Below, piece after piece: positions 6,854-35,273 of a stretch of DNA of 43,535 nt. Positions within the stretch are counted from its first letter, which is position 1. Each line of letters opens with the position of its first letter. The translations under genes and the position numbers were made by a program. The DNA comes from Pseudomonadota bacterium (lineage in GTDB: Bacteria; Desulfobacterota; Desulfovibrionia; Desulfovibrionales; Desulfovibrionaceae), in assembly GCA_018817515.1 (NCBI GenBank), contig JAHIUD010000051.1:1-43535 (forward strand), in the 5' to 3' direction. The notes under the pieces are model-generated. The model was not told the DNA's origin and made no database searches. It saw only the letters and a list, made by a program, of their open reading frames with translations.

Positions 6854-7642
6854 CTAGCCGGTTGCGTCGGCCTCCTCAAAGGCTTCGCGGATTGCGGCCA
6901 GGCCATTCAGGGCCGCCGGGAAGCCTGCGTAGCTCGCCATCTGCATGGCTACCTCCACGATTTCCTGGCGCGCCAGACCCACGTTCAGCCCGGCCTTGAC
7001 GTGGACTTTCAGTTGCGGACGCATGGTGCCGCGCGCGATGCTGGCGGCGATCATGGCCAGTTCCTTGCGCCGGGGCGAGAGGCCCGGGCGCGAGATGATG
7101 TCGCCGTAAGAGAAGTCCAGGATGAAGCGGGCCATGTCCGGGGCGGTGTCGGCCAGCATGTCCACCACGGCCTGGCCCGCGCCCCGGCTGGTGGCCTCCA
7201 GCGCGGCCAGCCCGCGCTCGTGGCGGGCGGAGTCTGCTGGGGCGGGCGGGATGTCGGGCTTTAGGCCGCGCTCCTGGAACACCGCGCGGGCGCAGGCCAG
7301 AGCATTCAACCCCGCCGGAAAGCCCGCGAACACGGTGGTGACGTAGATGGTCTCCACCACCTCCTGTGGGCTCAACCCCACGTTCAGGCCGCCGTCGATG
7401 TGGAACCGAAGCTGGGGCTCGGCGTTGCCCAGGGCGGTGAGCGCCGCGATGGTCGCCACCTGCCGGTCGGGCAGGCCCAGGCCGGGCCGGGCCATGATGT
7501 CGCCATAGCCGAAGGCCACGACCATCTCCACCATGTCTGGGGCGATGTCGCCAAAGGCCAGGCGCAGATTCTCCTCGGCCTTGGGATTCAGCTTGACCAG
7601 AGCCTCGCGGCCCGCGCTCAGTCTGTCGTCCATCATGCTCAC
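6854..7642 (-). CDS. Carboxymuconolactone decarboxylase (CMD/AhpD-like) family protein, tandem domains
   Basis: This 262-residue protein contains two copies of the CMD helical domain, roughly residues 25-125 and 150-255. Each carries the repeated pattern (F/Y)GDI...RPGL, then A-x-I-A-A, then H(I/V)-x-(G/A)GLNVGL followed by A-x-x-AGFPA-x-LN. Neither copy has the CxxC of peroxidase-type AhpD, so a redox role is not supported. Family members include decarboxylases and many uncharacterised proteins, so I give no reaction. The start is a GTG at 7642 with AGGAA just upstream; an ATG at 7636 is almost as good. It stands alone, convergent with the liv operon. Confidence 0.9.
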   Translation of the reverse strand: MSMMDDRLSAGREALVKLNPKAEENLRLAFGDIAPDMVEMVVAFGYGDIMARPGLGLPDRQVATIAALTALGNAEPQLRFHIDGGLNVGLSPQEVVETIYVTTVFAGFPAGLNALACARAVFQERGLKPDIPPAPADSARHERGLAALEATSRGAGQAVVDMLADTAPDMARFILDFSYGDIISRPGLSPRRKELAMIAASIARGTMRPQLKVHVKAGLNVGLARQEIVEVAMQMASYAGFPAALNGLAAIREAFEEADATG

Positions 7643-7701
7643 CGTATTCCTTTCCCGGCCAGGCGTCGCGCCTGGGAAGGGGTTGCGTTAATCAAGCCGG
7701 A

Positions 7702-7738
7702 ACAAAAGCAAAGGGCGGAGCCAAGATTGGCCCCGCCC
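7702..7738 (-). terminator. Intrinsic terminator after the PEP-CTERM-like gene
   Basis: GGGCGG-A-GCCA and TGGC-C-CCGCCC form an 11-position stem with one mismatch and an AGAT loop (7713-7738). Read leftward, it is followed by a T-rich stretch, TTTGCTTTTGTT. It lies 25 bases after the stop of the gene at 7763-8368. Confidence 0.8.
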
Positions 7739-7762
7739 CCGCGGACAGTCAAGAAAAGGATG

Positions 7763-8368
7763 CTAGGCCTTGCGCTTGCGCTTGAAGCCGATGAGGCCCA
7801 CCAGAGCCGAGCCCAAGAGCCACACGGCTCCGGGGACCGGGGTGGGGCTGGTCTGAAGCAGGGAGATGTTGTCCACCAGGGCGCCGTAGGAGTCGCTCTT
7901 GCCGGTGCCGAGGAGGTAGAGGATCTCGCTGGGCGAGGAGCCCTTGTACACGAAGGAGGTCGTCAGGGTCGTCCACTGGGTGCCCAGGGCGCTGGTTTCG
8001 TAGGAGTAGTCGCCGATGAGCACCTGCATGGACCCGGAGGTGGTGCTTTGCTGGCGGTTGAAATAGTCGAAGGAAAGCTGGTAGGTGGCGCCCGTGGTCA
8101 GGTTGACGCTCTGGCCGATGCGGATGTTTTTGTTGGCGTCGAGCTCGACGTAGTTGGTCGGGTTGCTGTTGCCGAACATGCCCTTCTGGACCTCGACCTC
8201 GCCTGAGTAGAGGTTCCAGCCCTGCAGCGTGGAGTAGATCGTCCAGCTCCCGTTGTTCAGGTTCCAGGGCGTGGTCTCGAAGTCGCCGTTGGTGATCAGG
8301 TTGGCCTGGGCGGACCCTGCGCCGCATAAGAGCACCAGCAGGAACAGGGCTAAGGTCAGTCGCTTCAT
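7763..8368 (-). CDS. Exported protein with PEP-CTERM-like sorting signal
   Basis: This 201-residue protein has an N-terminal signal peptide (MKRLTLALFLLVLL..., cleavage expected after SAQA). The middle domain begins LITNGDFE, typical of carbohydrate-binding-like beta-sandwich modules. The C-terminal tail is PVPGAVWLLGSALVGL followed by FKRKRKA. That tail is the three-part signal recognised by exosortase/archaeosortase systems: a short VP-x-x motif, a hydrophobic helix and a basic end. Such proteins are usually sorted to the envelope or exopolysaccharide layer. No exosortase or polysaccharide locus lies in this window. Start 8368 has an AGGGG site; a promoter-like element lies upstream and a terminator downstream, so it is a single-gene unit. 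The ligand is unknown. Confidence 0.88.
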   Translation of the reverse strand: MKRLTLALFLLVLLCGAGSAQANLITNGDFETTPWNLNNGSWTIYSTLQGWNLYSGEVEVQKGMFGNSNPTNYVELDANKNIRIGQSVNLTTGATYQLSFDYFNRQQSTTSGSMQVLIGDYSYETSALGTQWTTLTTSFVYKGSSPSEILYLLGTGKSDSYGALVDNISLLQTSPTPVPGAVWLLGSALVGLIGFKRKRKA

Positions 8369-29648: not shown

Positions 29649-29835
29649 TGCGGCCTCCTGGGTTGTTCGACATTTTACCCCTAGCGCACATCCGGCGGCA
29701 AGACAATGCGCCGGGGCAGAAGGGCCAGCCGGGGCCTGGAGGCGCAAGGGACGTTGCCCTGTGCGGGCTGGTCTGTTAGGAAGGCGTCAGCGGCGGACAT
29801 GGCCGCCTGAACCATCCACAGAAGGAGTATGCGAG

Positions 29836-30459
29836 ATGCAGCGTCTCTTCCATTCGGCTCTTCGTCCTGCCTTTGTTTCGGCCCTGCTGGCCCTGATGAT
29901 CCTCTCCTTGTCGGGCCTGGCCCTGGCCGCGAGCCCTGTGGCCCCGCAGACCGGCAAGACCCTGGTGAAGCTTGAGACCACCACGGGCGACATCGTGTTG
30001 GAGCTCTACAAGGACAAGGCCCCGCTGTCTGTGGGCAGCTTTCTGGCCCACGCCAAGAGCGGCCACTACGACGGCACCATCTTCCACCGCGTCATCAACG
30101 GCTTCATGATCCAGGGCGGCGGCTTCGACATGACCATGCACGAGAAGCCCACCGGCCCGGTCATCAAGAACGAGGCCGACAACGGGCTGAAGAACACGGT
30201 GTACACCATCGCCATGGCCCGCACCTCGGACCCGCACTCGGCCTCGGCGCAGTTCTACATCAACGTCAAGGACAACCGCTCCCTCGACCATTGGGGCAAG
30301 AGCGAGGCGGGCTGGGGTTACGCTGTGTTCGGCAAGGTCGTGGACGGCAAGCGCGTGGTGGACGAGATCAAGGGCGTGGCCACCGGGACGCGCGGGCCTT
30401 ACAGCGACGTGCCGCTCAAGCCCATCATCATCAAGAAGGTCGTGATCCTCTCCGAATAG
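29836..30459 (+). CDS. Periplasmic cyclophilin-type peptidyl-prolyl isomerase
   Basis: This 207-residue protein has a signal peptide (cleavage after ALAA, near 32). The cyclophilin domain includes TIFHRVINGFMIQGGG, SASAQFYINVKDN and YAVFGKVVDG, with catalytic Arg in FHRV. The short bacterial form is shown by the absence of the eukaryotic WLDGKHVVFG stretch. It catalyses proline isomerisation during folding of exported proteins. GAAGGAG precedes the ATG at 29836 by eight bases. TTGCCC/TAGGAA with a 17-base spacer at 29754-29782 could be its promoter. A terminator follows. Confidence 0.95.
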   Translation: MQRLFHSALRPAFVSALLALMILSLSGLALAASPVAPQTGKTLVKLETTTGDIVLELYKDKAPLSVGSFLAHAKSGHYDGTIFHRVINGFMIQGGGFDMTMHEKPTGPVIKNEADNGLKNTVYTIAMARTSDPHSASAQFYINVKDNRSLDHWGKSEAGWGYAVFGKVVDGKRVVDEIKGVATGTRGPYSDVPLKPIIIKKVVILSE

Positions 30460-30734
30460 CTTCGGCGAGCTTTCAAGCAGCCAGGGCGGTCCTTTAGGGG
30501 GCCGCCTTTTTTTGGGCCCCGGGCCGCCTTGCCCGTCTGGTCGTGGCTGGTAATGTCGTGACTGGCTTTGTCGTGAATGGAAGCGCTGCCGCGCCGGGCC
30601 ACCTCATCAGCCCGGTGGGGCCCGTGGTGCAGGCTGGAGTACAGCAGGCCCACCGGGTGGTGGGGCGTTTTGACGTAGCGGGGAATGTGTGGCGAAGCGG
30701 AACTGGTCTTGGAAGGCGTGCTGGTCTTGCTCAT
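30399..30734 (-). CDS. Small protein A of a paralogous pair (TPHHPVGLLY core), stop lost
   Basis: The frame starts at ATG 30734 with GGAGG eight bases upstream. Its core, TPHHPVGLLYSSLHHG, is shared with the next small gene at 30873-31076 (TPHHPVGLLYTMLRHG), and similarity continues through (D/E)E-x-x-R-x-x-x-x-S-I to a KAA. At that point the paralogue has TAG, whereas this copy has CGG and runs on for about 35 more residues across the terminator and the antisense of the cyclophilin 3' end. The expected unit is therefore about 75 residues and the rest probably a read-through tail. No family is recognised. It is probably cytoplasmic. Confidence 0.6.
   Translation of the reverse strand: MSKTSTPSKTSSASPHIPRYVKTPHHPVGLLYSSLHHGPHRADEVARRGSASIHDKASHDITSHDQTGKAARGPKKGGPLKDRPGCLKARRSYSERITTFLMMMGLSGTSL
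30485..30513 (+). terminator. Intrinsic terminator of the cyclophilin gene
   Basis: GGCGGTCC (30485-30492) pairs with GGGCCGCC (30499-30506; one G-T pair). Seven T follow. It lies inside the tail of the antisense small frame at 30399-30734. Confidence 0.85.
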
Positions 30735-30872
30735 GGTGGGAGCCTCCGGTGTTGGACGGTGGCGCGGGATGCGTTCGTCAGCGCTGCCGTTATGGCAGGG
30801 CCGCGTGACGCCGCAGTGAAGCGGGGGTGACTGTTCGGGCAGGGAGGCCTTCCCTCCGGCCCCGGCCCGACC

Positions 30873-31076
30873 CTAGGCCGCCTTGTCGGGCTGGCCGGCA
30901 ATGGACTCGAAGCTGATGCGGTGTGCCTCCTCGTGCGACAGGCCGCGCCCGTGGCGCAGCATGGTGTAGAGCAGCCCCACGGGATGGTGCGGGGTTGCGC
31001 AGTGGGGGCTTGCTGCGGCGTTGGGGGCTTCGCTTTCAGGACGCAGAGGTAGGGTGGCGGGGGGAACGTTACGCAT
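30873..31076 (-). CDS. Small protein B of a paralogous pair (TPHHPVGLLY core)
   Basis: This 67-residue protein starts at ATG 31076 with GGAGG five bases upstream, a very strong site; an upstream ATG at 31118 lacks one. It has a loose Ala/Pro N-terminus, the core TPHHPVGLLYTMLRHG and a helical end GLSHEEAHRISFESIAGQ. I do not know the family. The same strand and 138-base spacing suggest tandem duplication with its paralogue. The invariant HHP and the LLYxxLxHG helix are the best candidates for a functional core. Confidence 0.65.
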   Translation of the reverse strand: MRNVPPATLPLRPESEAPNAAASPHCATPHHPVGLLYTMLRHGRGLSHEEAHRISFESIAGQPDKAA

Positions 31077-31417
31077 GTCGACCTCCGGTGTGTATCGGGT
31101 TAAATCGTTGTAAGGCAAGAAGCGGACCAGCGTTGCATAATACCGAAATGACTAGATTAAATGATATTGACGGTAGGTGGCGTTGGGCATTTGTAAGCAA
31201 AATTGTCTGTTCGACACTATTGTTTGCACGAAATGGAGCAGGCAAACGCTCCCCTCCCACGAAGGTGCATGCCGGGGCTGTGTGACGGGGGTGTGAAGGG
31301 GGCGCAACGCTTTGACGCTTGCGCCCGCGAGGCGGCACAAACTGCTGGCAGATTGTCGCGCGCATGGAGTAGCTTGTGGGCATTCGTTCACAACAACAAT
31401 CAGTCAGGAGAATCCAC
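31077..31417. other. Divergent promoter region between small protein B and phoA
   Basis: This 341-base region is AT-richer than its flanks over 31077-31240. It contains two 7-base direct repeats TGTGACG and TGTGAAG separated by four bases (31281-31298), the spacing of a PhoB box. I see no convincing gene in it. Confidence 0.4.
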
Positions 31418-33040
31418 ATGCGCCTCAGAAACGCGGCATTCCTCTCGGCGCTGCTTGTGCTGTGCCTGTTCCAGGCAGCGCTGGCGGCAGGCCCGGCCAG
31501 AAACGTCATCGTGCTCATCGCCGATGGCACGGGCGCGGAGCAGTACACCCTGGCCCGCTGGTACAAAGGCGCGCCCCTGGCCCAGGACGCCATCCTCACG
31601 GGCATGGTGCGCACCTTCATCGCCGATTCCGTGGTGGCGGACTCGGCCCCGGCGGCCACGGCCTTCGCCACCGGGGTACGCTCCTCGGACAAGTTCATAA
31701 GCGTCGGCCCCAAGGCCAAGGTGCTCAACGGACAGCCGGTTCCGCCCGAGGCGCTGCGCTACCGCCCCCTGGCCACGGTGCTGGAGGGCGCGCGGCTGCA
31801 GGGCAGGGCCACGGGCATCGTGGCCACCAGCCGCGTGAGCCACGCCACCCCGGCGGCCTATCTGGCCCACGTGCCCAGCCGCGCCATGGAGACCGAGATC
31901 ATGGAGCAGGCCGTGTACCAGGGCGTGGACGTGGTGCTGGGCGGCGGGCGCGGCTACCTGACGCCCAAGGACGCGGGCGGCTCGCGCAAGGACGGCCGCG
32001 ACCTGCTCCCGGTGCTGCGCCAGCGCGGCTACGAGCTGCCGACCAAGGCCGACGAGTTGGCGGCGGCCAAGGGGCCGAAGATCTTCGGCCTGTTCGCCAA
32101 GAGCCACATGGCCGCAGACCTGGACCGCGCGGCCATCGCCGCCGGTGAGCCCGGCCTGGAGGACATGACCGCCAAGGCCATTGCCGTGCTTTCCAAAAAT
32201 CCCAAGGGCTTCTTCCTCATGGTCGAGGGCAGCCAGATCGACTGGGCCGACCACGCCAACGATCCGGCGCACCTGATCTCCGACCTCATGGCCTTTGACC
32301 GCAGCGTGCAGACGGCGCTGGATTTCGCCAAGAAGCGCAAGGACACCCTGGTGGTGGTTGTTTCGGACCACAACACCGGCGGCATGAGCATCGGCAACGC
32401 CAGCACCAGCGGGACCTACTCGCAGATGTCGCTGGAAGCGCTGCTGGAGCCACTGCGCAAGATGCATGTCTCGGGCGAGACCCTGTGGAAGGGCCTGGGC
32501 AAGGAGCCCACCCCGGAGAAGGTGCAGCGCGCCGTGCTGGAGGGCTGGGGCATGGAAATCAGCCCGGAGGAAGCCCGGAAGGTGATCGCGGTGGCCGCCG
32601 CGCGCAAGGAGGACCCTTACTACGCCCTGGGCGAGGTGCTGTGTCCGGAGCATACGCAGCTGGGCTGGACCACCCACGGCCACACCGGCGGCGATGTGCC
32701 TCTGTTCGCCTTTGGCCCCGGCAGCCCCAAGGGGCTCATCACCGGGCCCGACCTGGGCCAGGCCACGGCCCGGGCCCTGGGCATCGACCTTGCGGCGCTG
32801 AACCGCAGGCTGTTCGTGGACGCCGTCGAGGCCTTCCCCGGCCAGACGTCCTTCGCCGGCGGGGTCCTGCGCATCGAGCACAAGGGGAAGCTGGCCGAGC
32901 TGCCCGCCAATGAGAACATCCTGCGCCTGGACGGGCGCGAGATCCGGCTGGAGGGCCTTGTGGTCCACGCGCCGGACACGGGCAAGACCTACATCCCGGC
33001 CCAGGCGGTGCAGAAGATAAAGGGCCGGGCGAAGAAGTAG
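31418..33040 (+). CDS. phoA: Alkaline phosphatase, secreted
   Basis: This 540-residue protein has a signal peptide (cleavage after AALA, near 23). It carries the alkaline phosphatase elements: first metal Asp36 in IADGTGAEQ, nucleophile Ser76 in VADSAPAATA, EGSQIDWADHAND with metal-binding Glu, Asp and His residues, DHNTGG and THGHTGGDV. It releases phosphate from organic phosphates in the periplasm. The C-terminal 80 residues form an extra beta-domain. AGGAG precedes the ATG. It is longer than E. coli PhoA, as in many deltaproteobacterial forms. Confidence 0.95.
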   Translation: MRLRNAAFLSALLVLCLFQAALAAGPARNVIVLIADGTGAEQYTLARWYKGAPLAQDAILTGMVRTFIADSVVADSAPAATAFATGVRSSDKFISVGPKAKVLNGQPVPPEALRYRPLATVLEGARLQGRATGIVATSRVSHATPAAYLAHVPSRAMETEIMEQAVYQGVDVVLGGGRGYLTPKDAGGSRKDGRDLLPVLRQRGYELPTKADELAAAKGPKIFGLFAKSHMAADLDRAAIAAGEPGLEDMTAKAIAVLSKNPKGFFLMVEGSQIDWADHANDPAHLISDLMAFDRSVQTALDFAKKRKDTLVVVVSDHNTGGMSIGNASTSGTYSQMSLEALLEPLRKMHVSGETLWKGLGKEPTPEKVQRAVLEGWGMEISPEEARKVIAVAAARKEDPYYALGEVLCPEHTQLGWTTHGHTGGDVPLFAFGPGSPKGLITGPDLGQATARALGIDLAALNRRLFVDAVEAFPGQTSFAGGVLRIEHKGKLAELPANENILRLDGREIRLEGLVVHAPDTGKTYIPAQAVQKIKGRAKK

Positions 33041-33113: not shown

Positions 33114-34841
<1,728 letters not shown>

Positions 34842-35273
34842 GAACCAACCTCTTCGGGGGAGATGAGCAGACGCCTTGAGGCGCTGTGGCACTATAGGGG
34901 CCGTGTGGAAATGAGGCAAGGGGAAATGCTGAACAGGGCCGAAGGGCAGAGTGGGGGAGTAAAGAAACCACGAATTTTGCCGATCTTTCATTGTGTCTAT
35001 GAATGATCCGAGAGATAATTGAACATTATTGGCATGCTGGTCCAGAGCGGTGGCGAGCCGCCGGGATGTTGACAATCCTTGCCTAATGCGGCTAGATGAG
35101 CATGAATTCAAGGTACGGAAATATCCGTAAAATCATTGACCAAGTGAATGATCCGTGTGTGTTTGGCCCGAGGATTGCAAAACAAGATGCGCAGCCCCAG
35201 GCAGGCAGACCTTTCCGCCGCCGCAGGGACCGGAATTGACGGGCCATACCGCTTCACAACAACCATTGGGTAA
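34842..35273. other. Divergent regulatory region between fadD and the winged-helix regulator
   Basis: This 432-base gene-free stretch is clearly AT-richer than the genes. It contains a perfect TACGGA-AATA-TCCGTA palindrome (35114-35129), a direct repeat TGAATGATCCG at 35000-35010 and 35145-35155, and a TTGACA box at 35069-35074 with a weak TAGATG 18 bases further on. I see no gene. Confidence 0.6.
35114..35129. promoter_or_regulatory. Candidate operator, 16-base palindrome
   Basis: TACGGA and TCCGTA are exact inverted arms around AATA. It lies about 15-30 bases beyond a possible -10 box and 145 bases before the regulator start, where a repressor would block transcription. Confidence 0.55.

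Follow-up and report, generated by a model that had tools for sequence, protein, structure and literature searches.

The window, that is, the whole stretch of 43,535 nucleotides of DNA that was analysed, contains two small leftward reading frames in tandem, copies A and B, that lie between a convergent cyclophilin gene and a divergent alkaline phosphatase gene. The features of the locus are listed here in order of position; genomes compared with it are designated by G numbers.

29836..30459, + strand: cyclophilin-type peptidyl-prolyl isomerase (Pfam), the convergent neighbour
30399..30734, − strand: copy A, the paralogue, 111 aa, its stop codon lost
30483..30508, + strand: intrinsic cyclophilin terminator, crossed by the copy A frame
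30519..30521, − strand: CGG codon of copy A, directly after KAA, where the family has its stop
30743..30747, − strand: Shine-Dalgarno GGAGG of copy A
30805..30832, − strand: PHO box of copy A, AGTCAC-N5-CTTCAC-N5-CGTCAC, 70 nt before the start, score 23.0
30873..31076, − strand: copy B, an intact small protein of 67 aa, MRNVPP...TPHHPVGLLYTMLRHGRGLSHEEAHRISFESIAGQPDKAA, profile E 3.6e-24 (copy B is itself among the sequences building that profile)
30876..30890, − strand: tail PDKAA of copy B, a putative ClpXP degron
30909..30983, − strand: conserved core of copy B, residues 32-56
31082..31086, − strand: Shine-Dalgarno GGAGG of copy B
31282..31309, − strand: PHO box of copy B, CGTTGC-N5-CTTCAC-N5-CGTCAC, 205 nt before the start, score 20.9
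31418..33040, + strand: alkaline phosphatase (Pfam), divergent from copy B (also in G001)
33114..35111, − strand: AMP-binding ligase, the upstream flank of the locus

Both small frames begin with an ATG codon, preceded by ACACCGGAGGTCGAC in copy B and by ACACCGGAGGCTCCCACC in copy A, and they have the string TPHHPVGLLYxxLxHG in common. Copy B ends at a TAG stop codon directly after KAA, and at the same point copy A has K69-A70-A71 followed by CGG (30521-30519), beyond which it remains open for 40 more residues, across the cyclophilin terminator and opposite the final 61 nt of the cyclophilin ORF, in antisense. The initial annotation had described two paralogous frames, each with a GGAGG site, of which one stops at KAA and the other runs on through the terminator, and both the reading frames and the coordinates bear this out. 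The similarity of B to A (E 5.1e-5 in a search within their own genome), together with relatives in the genus that copy B alone as query finds at E values down to 2.9e-16, shows that the likeness is not due to chance. A sigma-70 consensus scan of positions 29700-31420 found no promoter-like site.

By these similarities the two copies are placed in an undescribed family of proteins of about 50-95 aa. An eight-member profile has a match in all 15 genomes of the window's genus (Humidesulfovibrio), and a 23-member profile, applied to 348 genomes of the order, finds the family at E<=0.001 in at least 25, two of them weak and at least 23 clear, the clear ones falling in four genera of one family; the best 18 candidates per genome were scored, and these counts are lower bounds. 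Among those best 18 candidates in each of the 348 genomes there are no clear members outside the genera g1, g34, g43 and g51, and an even sampling of the phylum (395 genomes) gives six matches, all from the same family (Desulfovibrionaceae). At least four of 26 genomes counted earlier (G198, G172, G100 and G204) proved on reading to carry unrelated proteins; they are absent from the result of the 23-member profile and are left out of the family counts. The search among relatives that the initial annotation had called for thus recovers the core throughout the genus and in three other genera of the family, and the shared core is real, but its TPHHPV part is only a local prefix: over the relatives the conserved block is LYTxxRHGxGLSxxEA, in which Y37, T38 and H42 do not vary and R41 hardly does (23 members, copy A left out), with L35, L46 and E50 also nearly invariant (21 members). 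A different N-terminus, MLRLLPxP or MLLLLPAP, occurs in five of the 15 genus genomes (L071, L072, L074, L075, L076); the window copies lack it.

The family is real, and the earlier statement that no known family has this core stands, with Pfam, NCBIfam and PHROGs naming none. No Pfam or NCBIfam family exceeds its cut-off for the members scanned, and no Pfam family is common to two or more of the 21 members scanned at E<=1. DUF7461 (PF24260) reaches 18 bits against a gathering cut-off of 27 and does so for copy B only, one of 21 members; the best PHROGs match, phrog_8497 (unknown function), has E 0.001 over residues 49-67 of copy B only, in a collection that has no cut-offs. We have treated these matches, each to a single member, as chance. 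The DUF1127 profile has no match in the 21 members at E<=1, and the best match among PDB sequences (E 0.18) is unrelated. A phage or plasmid origin was set aside, there being no relative in viral contigs (searched with the profile) or in plasmids or phages (searched with copy B only). A literature search brought up no mention of the family, and the accessible part of a paper on phosphate limitation in D. alaskensis (PMC5193443) has nothing on it.

The features that say most about function, the PHO boxes and the C-terminal Ala-Ala, went unnoticed in the initial annotation. When the upstream regions are compared, two GTCAC-type hexamers 16 nt apart are found before most of the genus copies, and in several of these a third repeat between the hexamers gives three repeats with an 11-bp period. 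A reading of the hexamers as an ECF-sigma promoter (TGTMAC-N16-CGTCAC) was dropped because the middle repeat produces the 11-bp period and pstS has the same element. The boxes of copies A and B are the best and second-best three-repeat sites in the entire 43.5-kb window. PHO boxes have been described as 11-nt direct repeats (PMC4415409), and the PhoB box of D. vulgaris, determined by DAP-chip, is reported as a (c/t)GT(n)AC repeat with a 4-bp spacer between 6-bp repeats (PMC3333781); that spacing corresponds to a period of 10, whereas in the window's genus only a period of 11 works.

All 24 close pstS genes, which come from 21 of the 23 genomes searched (G005 and G014 gave none at E<=1e-30), have a four-unit box of 11-bp period in which unit 1 is CGTCAC throughout and unit 2 is weak. 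Ten PstS matches are more distant, of which six were fetched, one of them having no upstream sequence; the other five have no box within the 400 bp upstream of the match, which agrees with the published observation that the motif is missing from a second pst operon in D. vulgaris (PMC3333781). Because the box matrix was built from pstS boxes only, its use on the small genes is not circular. In the 350 bp upstream, 10 of 17 genus copies score above the maximum of 526 control regions, and with 400 bp this is true of 11 of the 13 testable copies, A and B included, against 524 controls, the control regions being those before mechanically called ORFs of at least 150 aa rather than before curated genes. 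With repeat periods of 8-10 and 12-15 none of the 13 copies exceeds the cut at any setting, while the best of 200 random permutations of the matrix columns lifts nine of the 13 above it.

The 13 testable copies leave out G003 (a run of N upstream), G012 (whose contig begins 185 nt upstream), G013b (a second copy) and G006 (at another locus), and these four have no box in the 350-bp scan. G008 scores −0.03 at 350 bp, where the limit cuts a box lying 338 nt upstream, and 23.0 at 400 bp; G009 and G007 reach no more than 6.5 and 7.1 (empirical p 0.038 and 0.034). For G001 the start was set two codons late (it is likely a TTG), so that its box distance is 6 nt too large. Outside the genus, seven genomes give scores of 10.2, 9.9, 9.9, 9.7, 7.3, 4.3 and 2.3 (p 0.008 to 0.16); these boxes are weak and no more than suggestive.

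Within the genome of the window, the pattern of the copy A box with up to three mismatches has nine matches at six places, and a reversed-pattern control has six matches. The count is thus weak, and it is the places of the matches and not their number that constitute the argument: copy A (no mismatches, by construction), copy B (two), the pstS-pstC operon (two), and sites before a PhoB-like regulator, an EAL-domain gene and a chemotaxis-receptor-like gene. Taken together, these upstream sequences argue for Pho regulation of the small genes, which we regard as well supported at the level of sequence, and their products probably constitute a new small-protein family of the phosphate-starvation response.

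The other sites of the genome merit a brief description. That before the PhoB-like response regulator (L170, G000:C54, 907-933) has three mismatches, lies about 75-100 nt before the gene and has a divergent ORF on its other side; its position suggests autoregulation. Four-repeat PHO-box-like sites are located before the likely starts of the EAL-domain gene (L133, G000:C2:9037-9074) and of the chemotaxis-receptor-like gene (L137, G000:C102:12947-12984). There are three OmpR-type regulators in this genome, and for the two that were examined the best NCBIfam model is PhoB (TIGR02154), at 222 and 237 bits, both below the equivalog cut-off of 296. EAL genes are among the published PhoB targets in D. 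vulgaris (PMC3333781), and the likeness to that regulon extends to the repeat itself and to the targets, which are pst and HD/EAL genes there and pstS and an EAL gene here; the accessible part of that report names no small protein of the present family (PMC3333781).

Could the boxes serve a divergent neighbour, with the small ORFs regulated in some other way? In five genomes the box does lie in a divergent intergenic region, opposite the alkaline phosphatase in the window (where it is the copy B box that is so placed) and in G001, and opposite an arsenite methyltransferase in G002, G008 and G013. In G005, G007, G009, G010, G011 and G014 that side is occupied by the same-strand ligase, and in G004 by another same-strand ORF, such that the box can serve only the small gene. 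Furthermore, the box that scores best lies in the interval from B to A and is available to copy A alone, and both boxes of the window are on the strand of the small genes. This explanation is already disfavoured, and we think there is only the slightest prospect of its being correct.

The arsenite methyltransferase genes that diverge from the small gene and its PHO box are at L078:7749-8609 (G002), L080:8174-9046 (G008) and L082:5839-6702 (G013); the G002 copy is over the NCBIfam cut-off, and those of G008 and G013 are assigned by likeness. A SigZ-type sigma factor then follows in G008 (L080:9058-9654, tested), with a similar one in G013 (L082:5243-5827, by likeness). In these genomes there may be a tie between arsenic defence and phosphate starvation.

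The protein itself appears to be what selection has maintained. Over the 25 codons of the core, mean pN/pS is 0.46 in the close half of the genus (28 pairs), 0.25 in genus g51 and 0.70 in the other half of the window's genus, and the close-half DNA read in the +1 and +2 frames gives 0.97 and 1.49; GGAGG or a close variant precedes the start in all of the copies listed for the start-site comparison. A core pN/pS below that of the alternate frames, along with these Shine-Dalgarno sites, indicates that the small protein is under selection. The A-B pair, for which the initial annotation had proposed a dN/dS comparison, has dN 0.39 and dS 0.51 and is weak evidence of selection by itself; it is the relatives that carry the case. 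The earlier view that the peptides are selected therefore holds for the family (core pN/pS 0.46 and 0.25) but does not extend to copy A, where constraint is relaxed.

The genomic setting is also largely constant within the genus, the small gene being convergent with cyclophilin in 14 of the 15 genomes and having the AMP-binding ligase as its opposite flank in 13 (the contig of G012 ends, and in G006 the gene is at another locus). The convergence raises the possibility that it is the transcript and not the peptide that matters, with a PhoB-driven RNA running into the cyclophilin antisense and lowering cyclophilin under starvation, a proposal with which the finding of no terminator-like site on the − strand in 29700-31420 would also agree. 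The codon-level constraint and the Shine-Dalgarno sites show, to the contrary, that the peptide is selected, and at the six loci tested outside the genus no homologues of the window's neighbour genes were found beside the family; in G061 there is one distant match of another window ORF. We thus consider a role for the transcript very unlikely; as the neighbours were not found at those six loci, the small gene would not depend on them, and a selected peptide is the reading retained here.

In G002, G003, G008, G011, G012 and G013 the cyclophilin-adjacent small gene stops just before the cyclophilin terminator. Because copy A is positioned at that terminator as the copies of close relatives are, it is their positional counterpart, at what would be the ancestral place, with B as the extra copy. 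Tandem copies are also present in G013 and G014, and G008 has a truncated relic, from which it seems that the locus undergoes repeated duplication and decay. In G008 (L080, − strand) the interval from the box (8132-8105) to the intact copy (7766-7575) contains a Shine-Dalgarno sequence and 36 codons without the core, probably the relic of an upstream copy. In G014 (L075:7156-7314 and 7632-7796) a single PHO box precedes a tandem run of three small ORFs, all of which end in Ala-Ala; the core is missing from the first (52 aa, ...RALAA), and the third is a degenerate family member.

Copy A has a mean pN/pS of 0.83 against eight relatives (for the comparison with G002, dN 0.38 and dS 0.36), and T38, L46 and E50, each conserved in 21 relatives, are all changed in it. 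Given 0.83 as compared with 0.46, copy A is probably decaying, although its promoter box and ribosome site are kept, and our best reading of the two sequences is that copy B is the working member here. The loss of the stop codon buries KAA within a longer chain, and with it the putative degron is probably lost. It could instead be supposed that copy A has been converted into a longer, degron-free protein with a new role: its PHO box, Shine-Dalgarno sequence and TPHHPVGLLY have been preserved, and the frame stays open for 111 codons. The three changed residues are ones that are invariant or nearly so in 21 relatives, the pN/pS is that of relaxed constraint, and the 40-residue extension is made of the terminator and cyclophilin antisense, ahead of which the relatives' copies examined at that place have already stopped. 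We find such a conversion improbable; stop loss is most likely a symptom of decay, and conversion to a longer-lived form less likely.

The second informative feature is at the C-terminus. Among the 16 intact genus copies, 15 end in AA, 13 have P at −5 and 13 have K or Q at −3, in a set that leaves out copy A and the degenerate second copy of G014 (which ends RAA); these copies are related to one another, and the AA count is accordingly given without a p value. The distance from the RH motif to the end varies from 24 to 59 residues, and there are 15 distinct strings of the last 15 nt among the 16 copies; an AA end is present in four of 126 long ORFs of the same loci. The tmRNA tag of the window's own genome is ANDYDYALAA.

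Within the SsrA degron, the terminal Ala-Ala is described as what matters most to ClpXP (PMC7652416). A natural precedent is Streptomyces sigma-AntA, which is degraded by ClpXP and has Ala-Ala at the C-terminus in 67 of 71 orthologues (PMC7142297). Like sigma-AntA, the small proteins have a conserved natural Ala-Ala end that is not a product of tmRNA (PMC7142297), whereas sigma-AntA is a sigma factor of another phylum, and the proteins are unrelated to the small family. The Ala-Ala end is probably a ClpXP degron in the genus of the window. Strong ClpXP tails typically have a hydrophobic residue before AA, and the K or Q found here may make for a weaker signal.

The seven copies tested outside the genus end in NAE, LPA, LSA, PTA, LSS, GSR and ASR, and the G001 copy ends RTT; with Ala-Ala absent from all of these, the degron, if real, would be a property of the window's genus. 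They also lend something to a different account, in which the protein is induced by PhoB but stable, serving the starved cell as a durable structural or buffering component (at the nucleoid, ribosome or envelope, for example), with Ala-Ala a habit of the lineage or a binding feature, since the copies outside the genus lack Ala-Ala and keep the core. The retention of AA in 15 of 16 intact copies despite varied linkers and codons, as against four of 126 long ORFs, speaks against it. A stable protein is in our view unlikely, albeit a possibility to be taken seriously, and we continue with the short-lived one.

AlphaFold2, given 23 sequences, predicts two helices, at residues 32-43 and 48-60, after an N-terminus of low confidence (block pLDDT 86, 94 and 89; mean pLDDT 73.6; pTM 0.44). 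Foldseek returned no match at E<=0.001, and VIA-align no Z of 5 or more among 392 chains; the predicted two-helix hairpin is too small for a fold to be assigned. ClpS chains head the non-significant Foldseek list (E 1.9). Identity with the ClpS adaptor was rejected on an hhalign probability of 0.1% (E 0.54) against a ClpS profile of the same genus, itself shallow (8 sequences), and a hairpin shape in common with ClpS in the predicted model is not excluded.

How might such a protein act? We infer induction by PhoB, removal by ClpXP and action through protein contact, and consider it reasonably likely, with due reserve, that copies A and B encode microproteins of this kind functioning in phosphate starvation. 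When phosphate is low, phosphorylated PhoB would bind the three CGTCAC-type repeats of 11-bp period before each copy and switch the copies on together with pstS, steps that are well supported by the upstream sequences. The product, of some 60 aa, is predicted to have a disordered N-terminus followed by the two-helix hairpin, with a near-invariant Y-T-x-x-R-H surface that is supported by conservation. In this genus the P-x-[KQ]-A-A end is probably an SsrA-like ClpXP degron that makes the protein short-lived, and its level would then probably track the Pho signal and drop soon after phosphate returns. Copy B would carry out this function, and copy A, with its promoter and ribosome site, would be decaying, its degron buried by the stop loss. 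Binding of a partner is suggested by the lack of a known catalytic domain and by analogy with other phosphate-related small proteins, which act in this way; to name the partner is a guess.

Two small proteins of other bacteria bear comparison. YtfK of E. coli is an 8-kDa Pho-regulon protein, induced by phosphate starvation, that activates SpoT (PMC6917717); likened by description, it is Pho-regulated, confined to one bacterial lineage and acts on a regulator (PMC6917717), much as is proposed for the small family, and it differs in being gamma-proteobacterial, the small family having no Pfam family in common between members, as given above. DUF1127 proteins are reported to be very small, often under 50 aa, and to bind PhoR (PMC12501420), and are tied to phosphate control via protein-protein contact (PMC12501420), as is proposed for the small family, with the difference that their profile matches none of the small-family members scanned. 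These two, YtfK acting on SpoT and the DUF1127 proteins acting on PhoR, may be taken as the nearest working analogies. A third small protein linked to phosphate starvation and acting by contact is IraP, an anti-adaptor of the RssB/ClpXP pathway that protects another protein from degradation; the likeness is again one of description, and where IraP protects another protein the small family appears itself to carry a degron. A bolder formulation is that of a new class of microproteins, turned on by PhoB and removed by ClpXP as soon as phosphate is restored, whose YTxxRH two-helix surface tunes a partner such as PhoR/PhoU or SpoT, and of which copy A is a longer-lived stop-loss variant; in that complete form we hold it to be doubtful.

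Small proteins of nutrient-stress regulons are easily missed in gene calling, and phosphorus is often scarce in the habitats of sulfate reducers. What the locus provides is a defined family in which the promoter, the core and the tail predict PhoB, a partner and ClpXP respectively, together with tandem copies that display gene birth and decay in one place, the stop loss being a change that would remove the degron. If the degron reading is true, a Pho-induced signal could be shut off fast once its transcription stops.
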